A stretch of 64,000 nucleotides of DNA from Lysobacter alkalisoli (GTDB lineage: Bacteria > Pseudomonadota > Gammaproteobacteria > Xanthomonadales > Xanthomonadaceae): contig NZ_CP041242.1 in the NCBI RefSeq assembly GCF_006547045.1, positions 2,304,001 to 2,368,000 of the forward strand, written 5' to 3'. The position numbers were made by a program, and so were the translations under genes. Within the stretch, counting starts at the first letter, position 1, and the number at the start of each line of letters is the position of its first letter. The notes under the pieces were generated by a model. That model saw only the letters and a list, made by a program, of their open reading frames with translations. It ran no database searches and was not told the DNA's origin. This document shows, piece by piece, positions 2,527 through 55,822 of the stretch.

Positions 2527-3905
2527 ATGGAAAAAACCTCGATCCACGGCATGTGGTCATCCCGCCTGATGTTCATCCTCGCCGCCGCCGGTTCGGCGGT
2601 CGGGCTGGGCAACATCTGGCGCTTCCCCTACCTGACCTCGGACAACGGCGGCGGCGCCTTCGTGCTGGTCTATCTGGCCTGCATCGTCCTGGTCGGACTG
2701 CCGATCCTGATCGCCGAGGTGCTGATCGGCCGCCACGGGCGCATGAGCCCGATCAACACCCTGCGCAAGATTTCGCGCGAGGAAGGCAGCAGCCGCGGCT
2801 GGGTCGCCATCGGCTGGATGGGGATCGTCGCCGGGGTACTGATCCTGAGTTTCTACAGCGTGGTCGCCGGCTGGACCCTGCACTACGCCTGGTTGTACCT
2901 GAAACACCTGTTCGGCGGCGCCGGCATCACCGATCCCGCGGCGACGTTCTCGGCCTTGTTGTCGAACCCGCTGGAGCTGACCTTCTGGCATGCACTGTTC
3001 ATGCTCCTGACTACGGTGGTGGTAGCGCTGGGTGTGGAACAGGGACTGGAACGCGCGGTCCGCTTCCTGATGCCGGCGCTGCTGCTGTTGCTGCTGTTGC
3101 TGGTCGGCTATGGCCTGACCACCGGCCACTTCGGCGAGGCGCTGGCGTTCCTGTTCAAGCCGGACTTCTCGCGCATCACCGGCGGTGTGTTCCTGAGCGC
3201 GATGGGCCAGGCCTTCTTCACCCTCAGCCTGGGCATGGCGACGATGATGACCTACGGCGCCTACCTGCCGCGCGAGGGCATCTCGATCCCGCGCACGGTG
3301 GCCGCGGTCGCGCTGACCGACACCTCGATCGCCCTGCTCGCCGGCATGGCGATCTTCCCGATCGTGATCACTTTCGGTCTCGATCCGGCCGGCGGCGGTC
3401 CCGGCCTGATCTTCGCCTCGCTGCCACTGGCGTTCGAGGCGATGGCGTTCGGCACCGTGTACGGCCTGCTGTTCTTCGGCCTGCTTGCGATCGCGGCATG
3501 GACATCGTCGATCTCGCTGCTGGAGCCTGGCACAGCGTTCCTGAGCGAGAAGTTCGGGATCAAGAACCGCAAGGGCGCGGCGCTGTTGCTTGCCGGCCTG
3601 TCCTGGGCGGTCGGCCTGCTGTCGGTGCTGTCGCTGAACCTGTGGTCGGGGTGAGGTTCCCCGCCGACATGAACGTGCTCGGCGGCAAGAACATCATGGA
3701 TTTCGTCGAGTTCCTCGCCAACGATCTGATGCTGCCGCTGGGCGGCCTGTTGATCTCCCTGTTCGCCGGCTGGGCACTGAGCCGCAAGGTGCTGCGCAGC
3801 GAGCTGTCCGAGATGCCGGAGTGGATGTTCGTGGCGCTGCGCTGGGTGCTGCGCGTCCTCGCCCCGCTGCTGGTGCTGATCGTGCTGATCCGCGCAGTGA
3901 TCTGA
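2527..3905 (+). pseudogene. Sodium-dependent transporter (NSS/SNF family), frameshifted near the C-terminus
   Basis: Neurotransmitter:sodium symporter family. The N-terminus carries the unwound TM1 signature (AAAGSAVGLGNIWRFPYL) that binds Na+ and substrate, followed by GGGAFVLVYL. The first frame stops at 3652-3654 after LNLWSG. The missing end (FVEFLANDLMLPLGGLL...) continues in the -1 frame to TGA 3903-3905. Restoring one base near the GGGG run at 3648-3651 gives about 459 aa, normal for bacterial members, with the last two membrane helices complete. The remainder is intact, so sequence error is as likely as genuine loss. Substrate (amino acid or similar) unknown. Confidence 0.82.
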
Positions 3906-3909
3906 AGCC

Positions 3910-4031
3910 AGCTTCATTGACGCATGCGCCAATGAAGCTCCCAAAGTTTGCGTTGCAAACCTTGGGCTCCAGGCCATGCTTCCAATCCCCCGCTCGCGCC
4001 TACGGCGCGAGCCGCCCCCTTACCAAGGGGG
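3910..4031. repeat. Four-hairpin intergenic element, copy 1
   Basis: Four consecutive inverted repeats begin 4 nt after the transporter stop codon. H1 has 10-nt arms (3910-3919/3930-3939). H2 has 11-nt arms and a 3-nt loop (3941-3951/3955-3965). H3 has 9-nt arms and a 3-nt loop (3992-4000/4004-4012). H4 has 7-nt arms and a 3-nt loop (4015-4021/4025-4031). A second copy with the same H2-H4 geometry but different arm bases lies at 55615-55732. There is no classical U-tract. Function unknown; a 3'-end RNA structure or a mobile REP-like unit are both possible. Confidence 0.8.
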
Positions 4032-4055
4032 CTTGAAGCGCCGGCCAACTGTCCA

Positions 4056-4162
4056 GAAGCCGGTGGCCATGGGTTTGCGGGACCTTCGGAGGCAGGATGC
4101 CGACGATGAGCCTACATGGACGTACTTGCGGCGTGTCCCGCAAACCCATGGCCACCGGCTTC
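4056..4162. repeat. Long cruciform element with 28-bp arms, copy 1
   Basis: Perfectly complementary 28-nt arms at 4056-4083 and 4135-4162 enclose a 51-nt centre with smaller inverted repeats around GATGAGCC. The left arm is preceded by CTGTCCA. A second copy of almost identical length and layout is at 39425-39532. It sits immediately upstream of the mtnB promoter. Confidence 0.85.
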
Positions 4163-4186
4163 CCCCGAGCATGTCATCGCGTCCGC

Positions 4187-4192
4187 TAGAAT
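4187..4192 (+). promoter_or_regulatory. Predicted -10 element of the mtnBDC operon
   Basis: TAGAAT ends 7 nt before the mtnB ATG, so the transcript would be leaderless or nearly so. No convincing -35 lies 16-18 nt upstream. Similar TAGAAT boxes precede cysS and epmB in this window. Confidence 0.4.
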
Positions 4193-4199
4193 TGTCGGC

Positions 4200-4832
4200 A
4201 TGAGCGCCCTCCCTTACGACCCCGCCCGCCTCGCCCACTGCGCGGGCGAACTGATCGTCAACATCCGCGAGCTGTCCGAGCGTGGCTGGACCCCGGCCAC
4301 CAGCAGCAACTTCTCGCAGCGGATGGACGAGCGCCACGTCGCCATCACCGTTTCCGGCCGCGACAAGGGGCGGCTGGTCGAAGACGACATCATGGTCGTC
4401 GACCTCGACGGCAGGCCGGTCGCGACGGACAAGAAATCCTCGGCCGAAACGCTGCTGCACACCCAGCTTTACAAGCGCTTCCCGGAGACAGGCTGCGTCC
4501 TGCATACCCATTCGCTGGTCCAGACCGTGGCCTCGCGCCTGTACGCCGGAGCCGGGCATGTCCACCTGGAAGGCTACGAGCTGCTGAAAGCCTTCACCGG
4601 CAATACCACCCATGAAACCGCGATCGAGCTGCCGGTACTGCCCAACAGCCAGGACATGTCGACCCTGGCCGCACAGGTCGACTGCCTGCTCGACCAGCAG
4701 ACCCTGTGGGGCTACCTCATCGATGGCCATGGCCTGTACGCCTGGGGCCGCGACATGGCCGAGGCCCGCCGCCACCTTGAGGCATTCGAGTTCCTGCTCG
4801 CCGCCGAACTTGAGTTGAGGAAGCTGAGATGA
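4200..4832 (+). CDS. mtnB: Methylthioribulose-1-phosphate dehydratase
   Basis: Class II aldolase/adducin-fold enzyme (210 aa) of the methionine salvage pathway. It dehydrates 5-methylthioribulose-1-phosphate to 2,3-diketo-5-methylthiopentyl-1-phosphate. Visible features are the phosphate-binding segment TSSNFS, a catalytic Glu region near HLEGYE, and the zinc-binding HTHS motif. The frame is open upstream to 4116, but that stretch is repeat DNA; ATG 4200 follows the predicted promoter. It overlaps mtnD by 4 bp (ATGA), first gene of a tight three-gene operon. Cytosolic. Confidence 0.95.
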
Positions 4833-21015: not shown

Positions 21016-21092
21016 CGGGGTGTAGCTCAGCCTGGTAGAGCGCTACGTTCGGGACGTAGAAGTCGCAGGTTCAAATCCTGTCTCCCCGACCA
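21016..21092 (+). tRNA. tRNA-Pro (anticodon CGG)
   Basis: 77-nt cloverleaf with an encoded CCA end. The anticodon stem CTACG/CGTAG encloses loop TTCGGGA, giving anticodon CGG for codon CCG. D-loop AGCCTGGTAGAG and T-loop TTCAAAT are standard. The acceptor stem has one T-T mismatch (positions 6/67). It closely parallels E. coli proK. Confidence 0.96.
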
Positions 21093-39384: not shown

Positions 39385-39424
39385 GGCAGACCACTCCCCT
39401 CACAAAGAGCCTGCGCTCTGTCCA

Positions 39425-39532
39425 GAAGGCGGTGGTCATGCCTTTGCGCGACCGTCCGCAACATGGATGTTGCGGATGAGCCCCCATGGATGGGTTCACG
39501 GCGTGTCGCGCAAAGGCATGGCCACCGCCTTC
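39425..39532. repeat. Long cruciform element with 28-bp arms, copy 2
   Basis: Arms 39425-39452 and 39505-39532 pair over 28 bp with one G-U wobble. Two inner hairpins follow the pattern CCGCAACAT-GG-ATGTTGCGG and CCCAT-GG-ATGGG around GATGAGCC. Against the copy at 4056 the arms differ at several paired positions that all keep base pairing. CTGTCCA again precedes the left arm. Confidence 0.85.
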
Positions 39533-39570
39533 CACAGCACGTAACCGGCTTCACCCTTCTCTCCATCTTT

Positions 39571-48652: not shown

Positions 48653-48744
48653 TGTCATTCCCGCGAAGGCGGGAATCCAAGGACTTTCGCCTCGAAAGAC
48701 AGTCAACAGCAACGTCCATGGATCCCCGCCTTCGCGGGGATGAC
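48653..48744. repeat. GTCATTCCCGC-type inverted repeat pair
   Basis: Two hairpins, ATTCCCGC/GCGGGAAT (48657-48676) and ATCCCCGC/GCGGGGAT (48722-48741), are bounded by GTCAT and ATGAC and separated by 45 nt. The type is a widespread proteobacterial intergenic repeat (similar to neisserial dRS3 units), here between mtaD and efp. Confidence 0.75.
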
Positions 48745-54868: not shown

Positions 54869-55609
54869 ATGCAGTCACGCGTTGCATTGGTCACCGGCGG
54901 AACCGGTGGCATCGGCACGTCCATCATCAAACGGCTGGCCTCGATGGGGCACAAGGTCGCCACCAACTATCGCGACGAGAGCCGCGCCAAGGCCTGGCAG
55001 GAAAAGATGAAGGCCGAGGGCATCGAAGTGACGATGGCCAAGGGCGACGTCACTTCCGCCGACGAAGCCCAAGCGATGGTGCGCGAGATCGAGAACCGGC
55101 TCGGCCCGATCGAGATCCTGGTCAACAATGCGGGCATCACCCGCGACACCACGTTCCACAAGATGAAGCCGGAGCAGTGGAACGACGTGATCTGCACCAA
55201 CCTCAATTCGGTCTACAACGTGACCCGTCCGGTCATCGAAGCCATGCGCGAGCGCAAGTGGGGACGGATCATCCAGATCAGCTCGATCAACGGCCTCAAG
55301 GGTCAGTACGGCCAGGCCAACTACGCCGCGGCCAAGGCCGGCATGCACGGCTTCACCATCTCGCTGGCGCGCGAAAACGCCAAGCTGGGCATCACCGTCA
55401 ACACCATCTCACCCGGCTACGTGGCCACCGACATGGTGATGGCGGTGCCGGAAGAAGTCCGCGCCAAGATCGCTGCCGACATCCCGACCGGCCGCCTCGG
55501 CCGGCCGGACGAGATCGCCTATGCGGTGGCGTTCCTGGTCGACGAGGAAGCGAGCTGGATCACCGGCTCCAACCTGGACATCAACGGCGGCCACCACATG
55601 GGTTGGTAA
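54869..55609 (+). CDS. phbB: Acetoacetyl-CoA reductase (SDR family)
   Basis: 246 aa NADPH-dependent short-chain dehydrogenase reducing acetoacetyl-CoA to (R)-3-hydroxybutyryl-CoA for polyhydroxybutyrate. Rossmann motif [13 protein letters not shown], and catalytic Ser-Tyr-Lys in [22 protein letters not shown]; the C-terminus [12 protein letters not shown] is characteristic of PhaB/PhbB rather than FabG. A four-hairpin element begins right after its stop, then phaR. No PHB synthase or thiolase in the window. Confidence 0.94.
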
Positions 55610-55614
55610 GGGAC

Positions 55615-55732
55615 GTTTACCAAGCCTTGCTCGGTAAACTCCAAAACCTGCTGCGCAGGTTTCGGGCCCGGTCAATGCGCTCCCACACCCCCATTCGCGC
55701 CTGCGCCGCGAATCGCCCCCTGACTCAGGGGG
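55615..55732. repeat. Four-hairpin intergenic element, copy 2
   Basis: H1 GTTTACC/GGTAAAC (55615-55621/55633-55639), H2 11-nt arms with 3-nt loop (55641-55651/55655-55665), H3 9-nt arms with 3-nt loop (55693-55701/55705-55713), H4 CCCCCTG-act-CAGGGGG (55716-55732). It begins 5 nt after the phbB stop. H2, H3 and H4 have exactly the geometry of the copy at 3910 with different arm bases. Confidence 0.8.
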
Positions 55733-55822
55733 CCATGGGCCTTGATGCGAATTCGCCAACAGTTGCAAGGCAAGTGTCCCTGCGCCATGCTGCAGGGCAC
55801 CACGTACACGAGCTGACGTTTC

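Follow-up and report, generated by a model that had tools for sequence, protein, structure and literature searches.

What is a stack of four hairpins doing directly behind a stop codon? The question is raised by two intergenic stretches of the 64,000 nucleotides of Lysobacter alkalisoli DNA analysed here (the window), at 3910-4032 (element 1) and 55615-55733 (element 2), both on the plus strand. We find that the two are members of one dispersed structured repeat of about 120 bp, with a fixed order of parts: hairpins H1 and H2, a C-rich linker, and hairpins H3 and H4.

Two four-hairpin units and their surroundings

Element 1 reads as one whole unit, with a covariance-model match (C1:2307907-2308032, 111.9 bits) and an RNA fold in support. 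It follows a small ORF (3642-3905, plus strand, about 88 codons, start not fixed) with its own stop codon, TGA at 3903-3905; H1 starts 4 nt downstream. The gene upstream of this ORF (2527-3654) presumably encodes a sodium-dependent transporter, a name taken from its protein. H1 of element 1 (3910-3939; 13-4-13, given as arm-loop-arm; AGCTTCATTG..CAATGAAGCT) is of the type that we call subfamily A. H2 (3940-3966; 12-3-12; CCCAAAGTTTGC/GCAAACCTTGGG) is followed by the linker (3967-3991), by H3 (3992-4012; 9-3-9; GCTCGCGCC-TAC-GGCGCGAGC) and by H4 (4014-4032), which is 7-3-7 at 4015-4031 (GCCCCCTT-ACC-AAGGGGGC) with the additional pair G4014-C4032. In the predicted RNA fold the linker sequence GCUUC pairs with GAAGC just behind the stop codon. 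Pairing of the linker with the bases after H4 (GCTTC(C)AA with TTGAAGC in element 1) was also tried and was rejected: over 100 units the longest complementary run does not exceed that with permuted partners, 66 of 300 permutations being as high.

Element 2, of subfamily C, is likewise one whole unit by direct reading, by model match (C1:2359611-2359733, 117 bits) and by RNA fold. Its H1 starts 5 nt downstream of the TAA stop (55607-55609) of a plus-strand gene (54869-55609) that we take, from its protein, to be an acetoacetyl-CoA reductase-like gene, phaB. Its hairpins are H1 (55615-55639; 11-3-11; GTTTACCAAGC-CTT-GCTCGGTAAAC), H2 (55641-55665; 11-3-11; CCAAAACCTGC-TGC-GCAGGTTTCGG), H3 (55693-55713; 9-3-9; ATTCGCGCC-TGC-GCCGCGAAT) and H4 (55715-55733), again 7-3-7 at 55716-55732 (GCCCCCTG-ACT-CAGGGGGC) plus G55715-C55733. 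The mismatches are one A.C in each H1 and each H2 of both elements, and one C.C in H3 of element 2. As RNA, elements 1 and 2 each fold better than 200 of 200 dinucleotide shuffles (z -6.1 and -3.6). The positions given in an earlier note on this DNA, 4-5 nt after a stop codon with four consecutive hairpins each, are thus borne out by direct reading. Its claim that arms and loops are of equal length in the two copies stands for H3 and H4, and 11-3-11 is correct for H2 of element 2; H2 of element 1 is longer by one pair.

Other palindromes occur nearby. A second palindrome family stands 24 nt behind element 1 (window 4056-4162; also 39421-39533). The palindrome at 4056-4162 has perfect arms of 28 nt around a 51-nt centre and gives 64 rows in its own genome, of which, besides itself, about 40 are near full length at 74-97% identity. 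Similar hairpins were seen by eye behind the lpd gene in three genomes (G060, G084, G086). Where the window has 4033-4170, locus L360 of genome G004 has a short palindrome (GGAAGCCGCCGGCTTCC) in place of the long one, as if the long palindrome had grown, or had been inserted in the centre of the short one. Two further GC-rich hairpins lie at window 48657-48676 (ATTCCCGCGAAGGCGGGAAT) and 48722-48741 (ATCCCCGCCTTCGCGGGGAT).

A repeat family behind the genes of Lysobacteraceae

A covariance model built from 36 copies yields 41 rows in the L. alkalisoli genome (search at E<1e-5, all rows at E<=3.1e-6), corresponding to 40 places and one reverse-strand shadow; 150 of 2414 first-look candidates were scored, so the genome holds at least 40 places, and adjoining units in this match list overlap by up to 7 nt. 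Plain DNA searches of the same genome gave 42 rows at E<=10 for element 1 (best four other copies at 86-88%) and 33 rows at E<=1 for element 2 (best other copy at 93%). The two lists overlap only partly and neither element retrieves the other; they belong to different subfamilies. The subfamilies are set apart by H1 (A, AGCTTCATTG..; B, GATTCCCGGGC..; C, GTTTACCAAGC..; D, GATATCCGG.., the last in Lysobacter maris and G004) and also by H2. One L. maris locus (L096, 2119-2430) shows a subfamily of that species with the same build and a wholly different H2 (CACGGGTTTCGC/GCGAAACCCGTG).

Units also occur in head-to-tail arrays that repeat every 121 bp or so (C1:238345-238709, 954331-954695, 1562714-1563078, 3134568-3134933 and 513480-513711), in which H4 of one unit runs directly into H1 of the next; there is one opposed pair, C1:3716937(+)/3717115(-). 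Three L. maris loci (L084, L105, L137) have a hybrid H1 that combines the 5' arm of one type with the 3' arm of another, which suggests recombination between H1 loops in arrays.

The family is largely one of Lysobacteraceae. The model matches at E<=0.01 in 25 of 36 same-family genomes, with a best E below 1e-10 in 21; among 24 genomes from other families of the order, four match, none below 1e-10 (best 1.7e-8). Match counts for the own genome and its relatives include reverse-strand shadows; G002 and G004 have at least 59 each. In G045, a genome of the order but of a different family, the model gives 28 weak matches (best 1.7e-8); these may belong to a related repeat family, or to one that is simply rich in hairpins. 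A search with an exact H2-only pattern hit 86 stretches of GTDB contigs. Among the 80 matches listed, 45 are from L. maris, and the others include Lysobacter, Luteimonas, Stenotrophomonas, Xanthomonas, Pseudoxanthomonas and Thermomonas, [Pseudomonas] boreopolis (which we take to be a Lysobacteraceae species) and MAGs labelled Lysobacteraceae, Lysobacterales or Proteobacteria. The further copies in related genomes on which the earlier note's case hinged were thus found by DNA, pattern and covariance-model searches.

For the genomic context we used a gene finder seeded on GC by codon position and trained on the own genome; it was checked only by the plausible picture that it gave of the window, and it served for other genera too. 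It placed 93 copies or arrays: 35 lie in sense between co-directional genes (++), 24 lie between convergent genes (+-), 20 are antisense to both neighbours (--), three lie between divergent genes, and 11 have only one neighbour called. In 28 of 62 cases H1 stands between -20 and +17 nt from a stop codon of its own orientation; H4 comes that close to an opposing stop in three of 49 (Fisher p 4e-6). If copies were spread uniformly over these gaps, 12 of 58 would be near the stop, against the 28 observed. The position relative to stop codons, seen by the earlier note in two copies, therefore extends to the family: copies stand behind genes and rarely between divergent ones, and H1 frequently lies at the stop codon or spans it.

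Pairing kept through sequence change

Double changes occur in 25 of 40 pairs among the 36 copies, and the covariation score is 0.289, against 0.120 for shuffled and at most 0.109 for slid partners; further pair types are barely above shuffles (54 vs 48.6, with 11 of 500 shuffles as high). Because part of this set had been found by a pairing-aware (hairpin) scan, two tests were made on copies chosen otherwise, namely by gene (the 3' ends of lpd) and by flanks (the H3 modules of L. maris).

We found lpd at E<=1e-200 in 76 of 79 family genomes and examined 70 lpd 3' ends (leaving out G010, G032, G078, G085, G096 and G101); 69 were read by eye (G103 left out) and all 70 were searched with the model. 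The element stands at eight of the 70 (G000, G014, G016, G018, G064, G067, G089, G098), in seven genera, since G016 and G089 are of the same genus. The model recovers the same eight copies as reading by eye (E 1.5e-10 or better), and the units are four-hairpin structures of about 110-130 bp. The copy in G064, with its irregular H2, was left out of the covariation count. The other seven copies have 95.9% of their cells paired and double changes at 16 of 39 pairs; their covariation score of 0.370 compares with 0.172 for shuffled and at most 0.111 for slid partners. The further pair types, 25 vs 22.5 in shuffles with 65 of 500 as high, are not clearly above the shuffles.

The 5' arm of H1 at lpd consists of the last lpd codons, the stop codon lies in or beside the loop, and the 3' arm mirrors the local codons. 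Three coding-side pairs of the scored H1 stem are variable; each falls on a third codon position (His, Lys and Ala codons), and each is compensated. Synonymous codon positions of lpd thus covary with untranslated bases across genera, which makes the choice between selection and templated palindrome repair directly testable at this locus. At two further H1 pairs a change on the untranslated side has broken the pairing, each in a single genome. Most of H2 differs in sequence from one of these genomes to the next, with its pairing retained.

H1-like hairpins of 7-9 pairs, lacking H2-H4, are present behind lpd in three other genomes (G062, G068, G095). We set these aside as weak evidence because stop-codon-centred hairpins of at least 7 pairs occur at two of 57 window genes (one of them phaB) and at 1.4% of random positions; the same count led us to reject such hairpins as a general feature of the genome.

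Among the L. maris H3 modules, 58 of 62 are fully paired, with six different arm pairs, and the remaining four have one mismatch. Across the 36 copies, the lpd set and the L. maris H3 modules alike, then, arms keep their pairing as they change. The earlier note had read covariation between its two copies as a sign that the folded form is selected; the retained pairing is confirmed, but it is consistent with selection on RNA as well as with copying of one arm from the other, and the mismatches, discussed below, point to the opposite strand.

Quasi-palindrome correction by template switching is a known mechanism of neutral arm copying, and could keep hairpins perfect without selection on the folded molecule. 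Compensation could come from such templated repair instead of selection; the further pair types are barely or not above shuffles. The L. maris H3 arms differ together, with single-sided intermediates rare (4/62), and the synonymous coding positions of lpd are mirrored in the 3' arm as foldback copying would give. Nevertheless we consider it quite unlikely that neutral copying accounts for the family: from genus to genus the four hairpins keep their order and nearly the same arm lengths, together with the C-rich linker; copies are not placed at random with respect to stop codons; and an A.C at H2 position 6 persists uncorrected in several genomes.

The repeat comes and goes at individual loci. 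Seven genomes of the genus were compared. Between phaB and phaR, G000 has a single unit, G002 has a unit next to a decayed copy, and G004 has a decayed copy; in G001, G003, G005 and G006 the gap contains no unit. The transporter gene is followed by one unit in G000, by two tandem units in G004, and by none in the other five. These differences within the genus tell us that a locus can acquire a unit, multiply it or lose it; some units nevertheless persist from genus to genus. Occupancy is patchy at every one of these loci (8/70 at lpd, 2/7 behind the transporter, and at phaB as just described), and the element is therefore dispensable. Loci that naturally have or lack it (lpd, phaB, transporter) offer material on the effect of a hairpin stack at a stop codon.

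Strand of folding, role and relation to known repeats

Mismatches and loops bear on which strand folds. We parsed 103 units, made up of 68 from 130 matches (leaving out reverse-strand shadows, weak rows and some array units) and 35 from another 48. With only Watson-Crick pairs scored as paired, their stems show 143 A.C, 22 G.T and 70 other mismatches on the gene strand, or 82, 22 and 67 over distinct stems. Counted per genome, helix, position and pair, there are 48 A.C events vs 10 G.T; ignoring genome, 22 vs 10 (p 0.025). An A.C on the gene strand reads as G.T on its complement, which suggests folding of the opposite strand. Triloops of the form C(TNC)G on the gene strand, which are C(GNA)G on the other, make up 34 of 62 in H1, 63 of 96 in H2 and 73 of 92 in H3, with two, three and zero of the reverse type; in DNA, C(GNA)G loops are highly stable. 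Folded as RNA, the opposite strand is the more stable one in 102 of 103 units, and folded as DNA in 100 of 103, partly because its linker is G-rich. H4 lacks the bias of H1-H3 (A.C 4, G.T 6 over distinct stems; C(TNC)G in one of 88), and the seven lpd orthologues contribute few events (A.C 2, G.T 3). What H1-H3 show in their mismatches and triloops speaks for the opposite strand as the one that folds, and the kind of loop for DNA.

These patterns would fit a repeat whose working form is the opposite strand as single-stranded DNA, that is, a small non-autonomous mobile hairpin element spread by an HUH-type transposase acting in trans or by template switching at its hairpins during replication. 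The head-to-tail arrays, and the one unit in G000 vs two in G004 at the same locus, would fit as well. We regard this as possible but rather unlikely overall, because independent mismatch events are few, H4 is without the pattern, and the locus-stable lpd copies across genera look inherited rather than mobile. A transposase of the RAYT/Y1 type is rejected as a necessary partner: none of the 11 Y1 loci examined, L147 of the own genome included, carries the element in the flanks examined, and G004 has its at least 59 model matches and no Y1 transposase gene. Spread on plasmids or phages finds no support either, with no blastn match to element 1 at 1e-5. (L147, at C1:2272942-2273271, is the only Y1-transposase gene found in the L. 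alkalisoli genome, with TGACCCC-type repeats around it; the second gene pair behind it is presumably mobile-element-like.) On a related and unlikely proposal, H1 would recruit the last codons and stop of the host gene as an arm, kept or renewed by foldback of the opposite strand as single-stranded DNA, so that a mobile four-hairpin unit would turn into a stop-codon structure that is specific to its gene and lasts.

A transcription terminator, Rho-dependent or of an unusual intrinsic kind, might be expected behind stop codons, and might use the C-rich, G-poor linker between hairpins or the TTTCCTCC-like tract that follows H4 in several copies from other genera. This is very improbable, we think: a scan of the two window elements found no U-tract (intrinsic) terminator at either, and by reading, terminator-like hairpins stand downstream of the element at lpd in G000, G064 and G089. 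There the element itself is not the terminator and would lie in the 3' UTR.

Our preferred interpretation, to which we give about an even chance, is that of a composite extragenic repeat of Lysobacteraceae, resembling REPs and BIMEs (bacterial interspersed mosaic elements), that acts in the 3' UTR by protecting 3' ends and reducing read-through. One unit of four hairpins would have been copied to many 3' flanks, multiplying locally as head-to-tail arrays and spreading although it carries no gene. When the last ribosome has moved off the stop codon, the hairpins would fold in the upstream gene's transcript; the stack may then block 3'-to-5' exonucleases, so that 3' ends are trimmed back to the stack and the upstream message is protected, and it may weaken read-through into the next gene. 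An H1 that spans the stop codon may also slow translation termination. Several observations count against this 3'-UTR reading: the excess of A.C over G.T events on the gene strand in stems of the dispersed copies (48 vs 10) is the opposite of what selection on a sense RNA would lead one to expect, 20 of the 82 copies or arrays having both neighbours called are antisense to both, templated repair could account for the compensation, and the element is patchy at each locus.

How, then, does the repeat compare with known systems? Rfam finds only the tRNA at 21016-21089 above threshold in the whole window, and at E<=5 all its matches in 3850-4200 are far below gathering scores. Titles and abstract openings of the literature outside subscription journals gave no description of a four-hairpin element. 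Integron attC sites, of which the bottom strand is the folded one, also stand directly behind stop codons, but the repeat has no cassette order and four separate hairpins. The REPs of Stenotrophomonas and Xanthomonas, among which SMAG is named, are hairpin repeats from the same bacterial family. In the parts of PMC2817692 that treat them, these are single palindromes headed by GT(A/G)G and accompanied by RAYT genes, and the sequences tabulated in that passage differ from H1-H4. REPs in general, as described in passages of PMC2817692 and PMC3733652, are single palindromes of 20-40 bp with a conserved 4-nt tag, GT(A/G)G or CGTC, and occur mostly in head-to-head or tail-to-tail pairs. These defining tags are absent from our repeat: with each helix of H1-H4 and each side counted separately, 0-10 of the 103 units have GTRG no more than 6 nt away, and 0-3 have CGTC. 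The repeat further differs from REPs in its four distinct hairpins per fixed unit of about 120 bp, its head-to-tail arrays and the lack of a RAYT link in the loci seen. It shares with REPs, as those same passages portray them (PMC2817692, PMC3733652), GC-rich short-loop hairpins, many extragenic copies mostly behind genes, a location between co-directional or convergent genes, and palindromes kept via complementary changes. The roles given for E. coli REPs in passages of PMC5082802 are 3'-end protection, termination, and ribosome stalling within 15 nt of a stop codon.

Like BIMEs, the repeat is modular and tandem with a variable number of units; in BIMEs REP orientation alternates, whereas the five arrays named above are all head-to-tail, with units in the same direction. 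The earlier note had held that the architecture matches no terminator, riboswitch or REP family. This is right as to Rfam, U-tracts at the two window elements and REP tags, and does not hold for placement, abundance and behaviour, which are REP/BIME-like. With it the REP-like repeats gain a multi-hairpin class that is family-wide and has neither a tag nor a known transposase. In position, abundance and behaviour it is a variant of these repeats and not a class apart.
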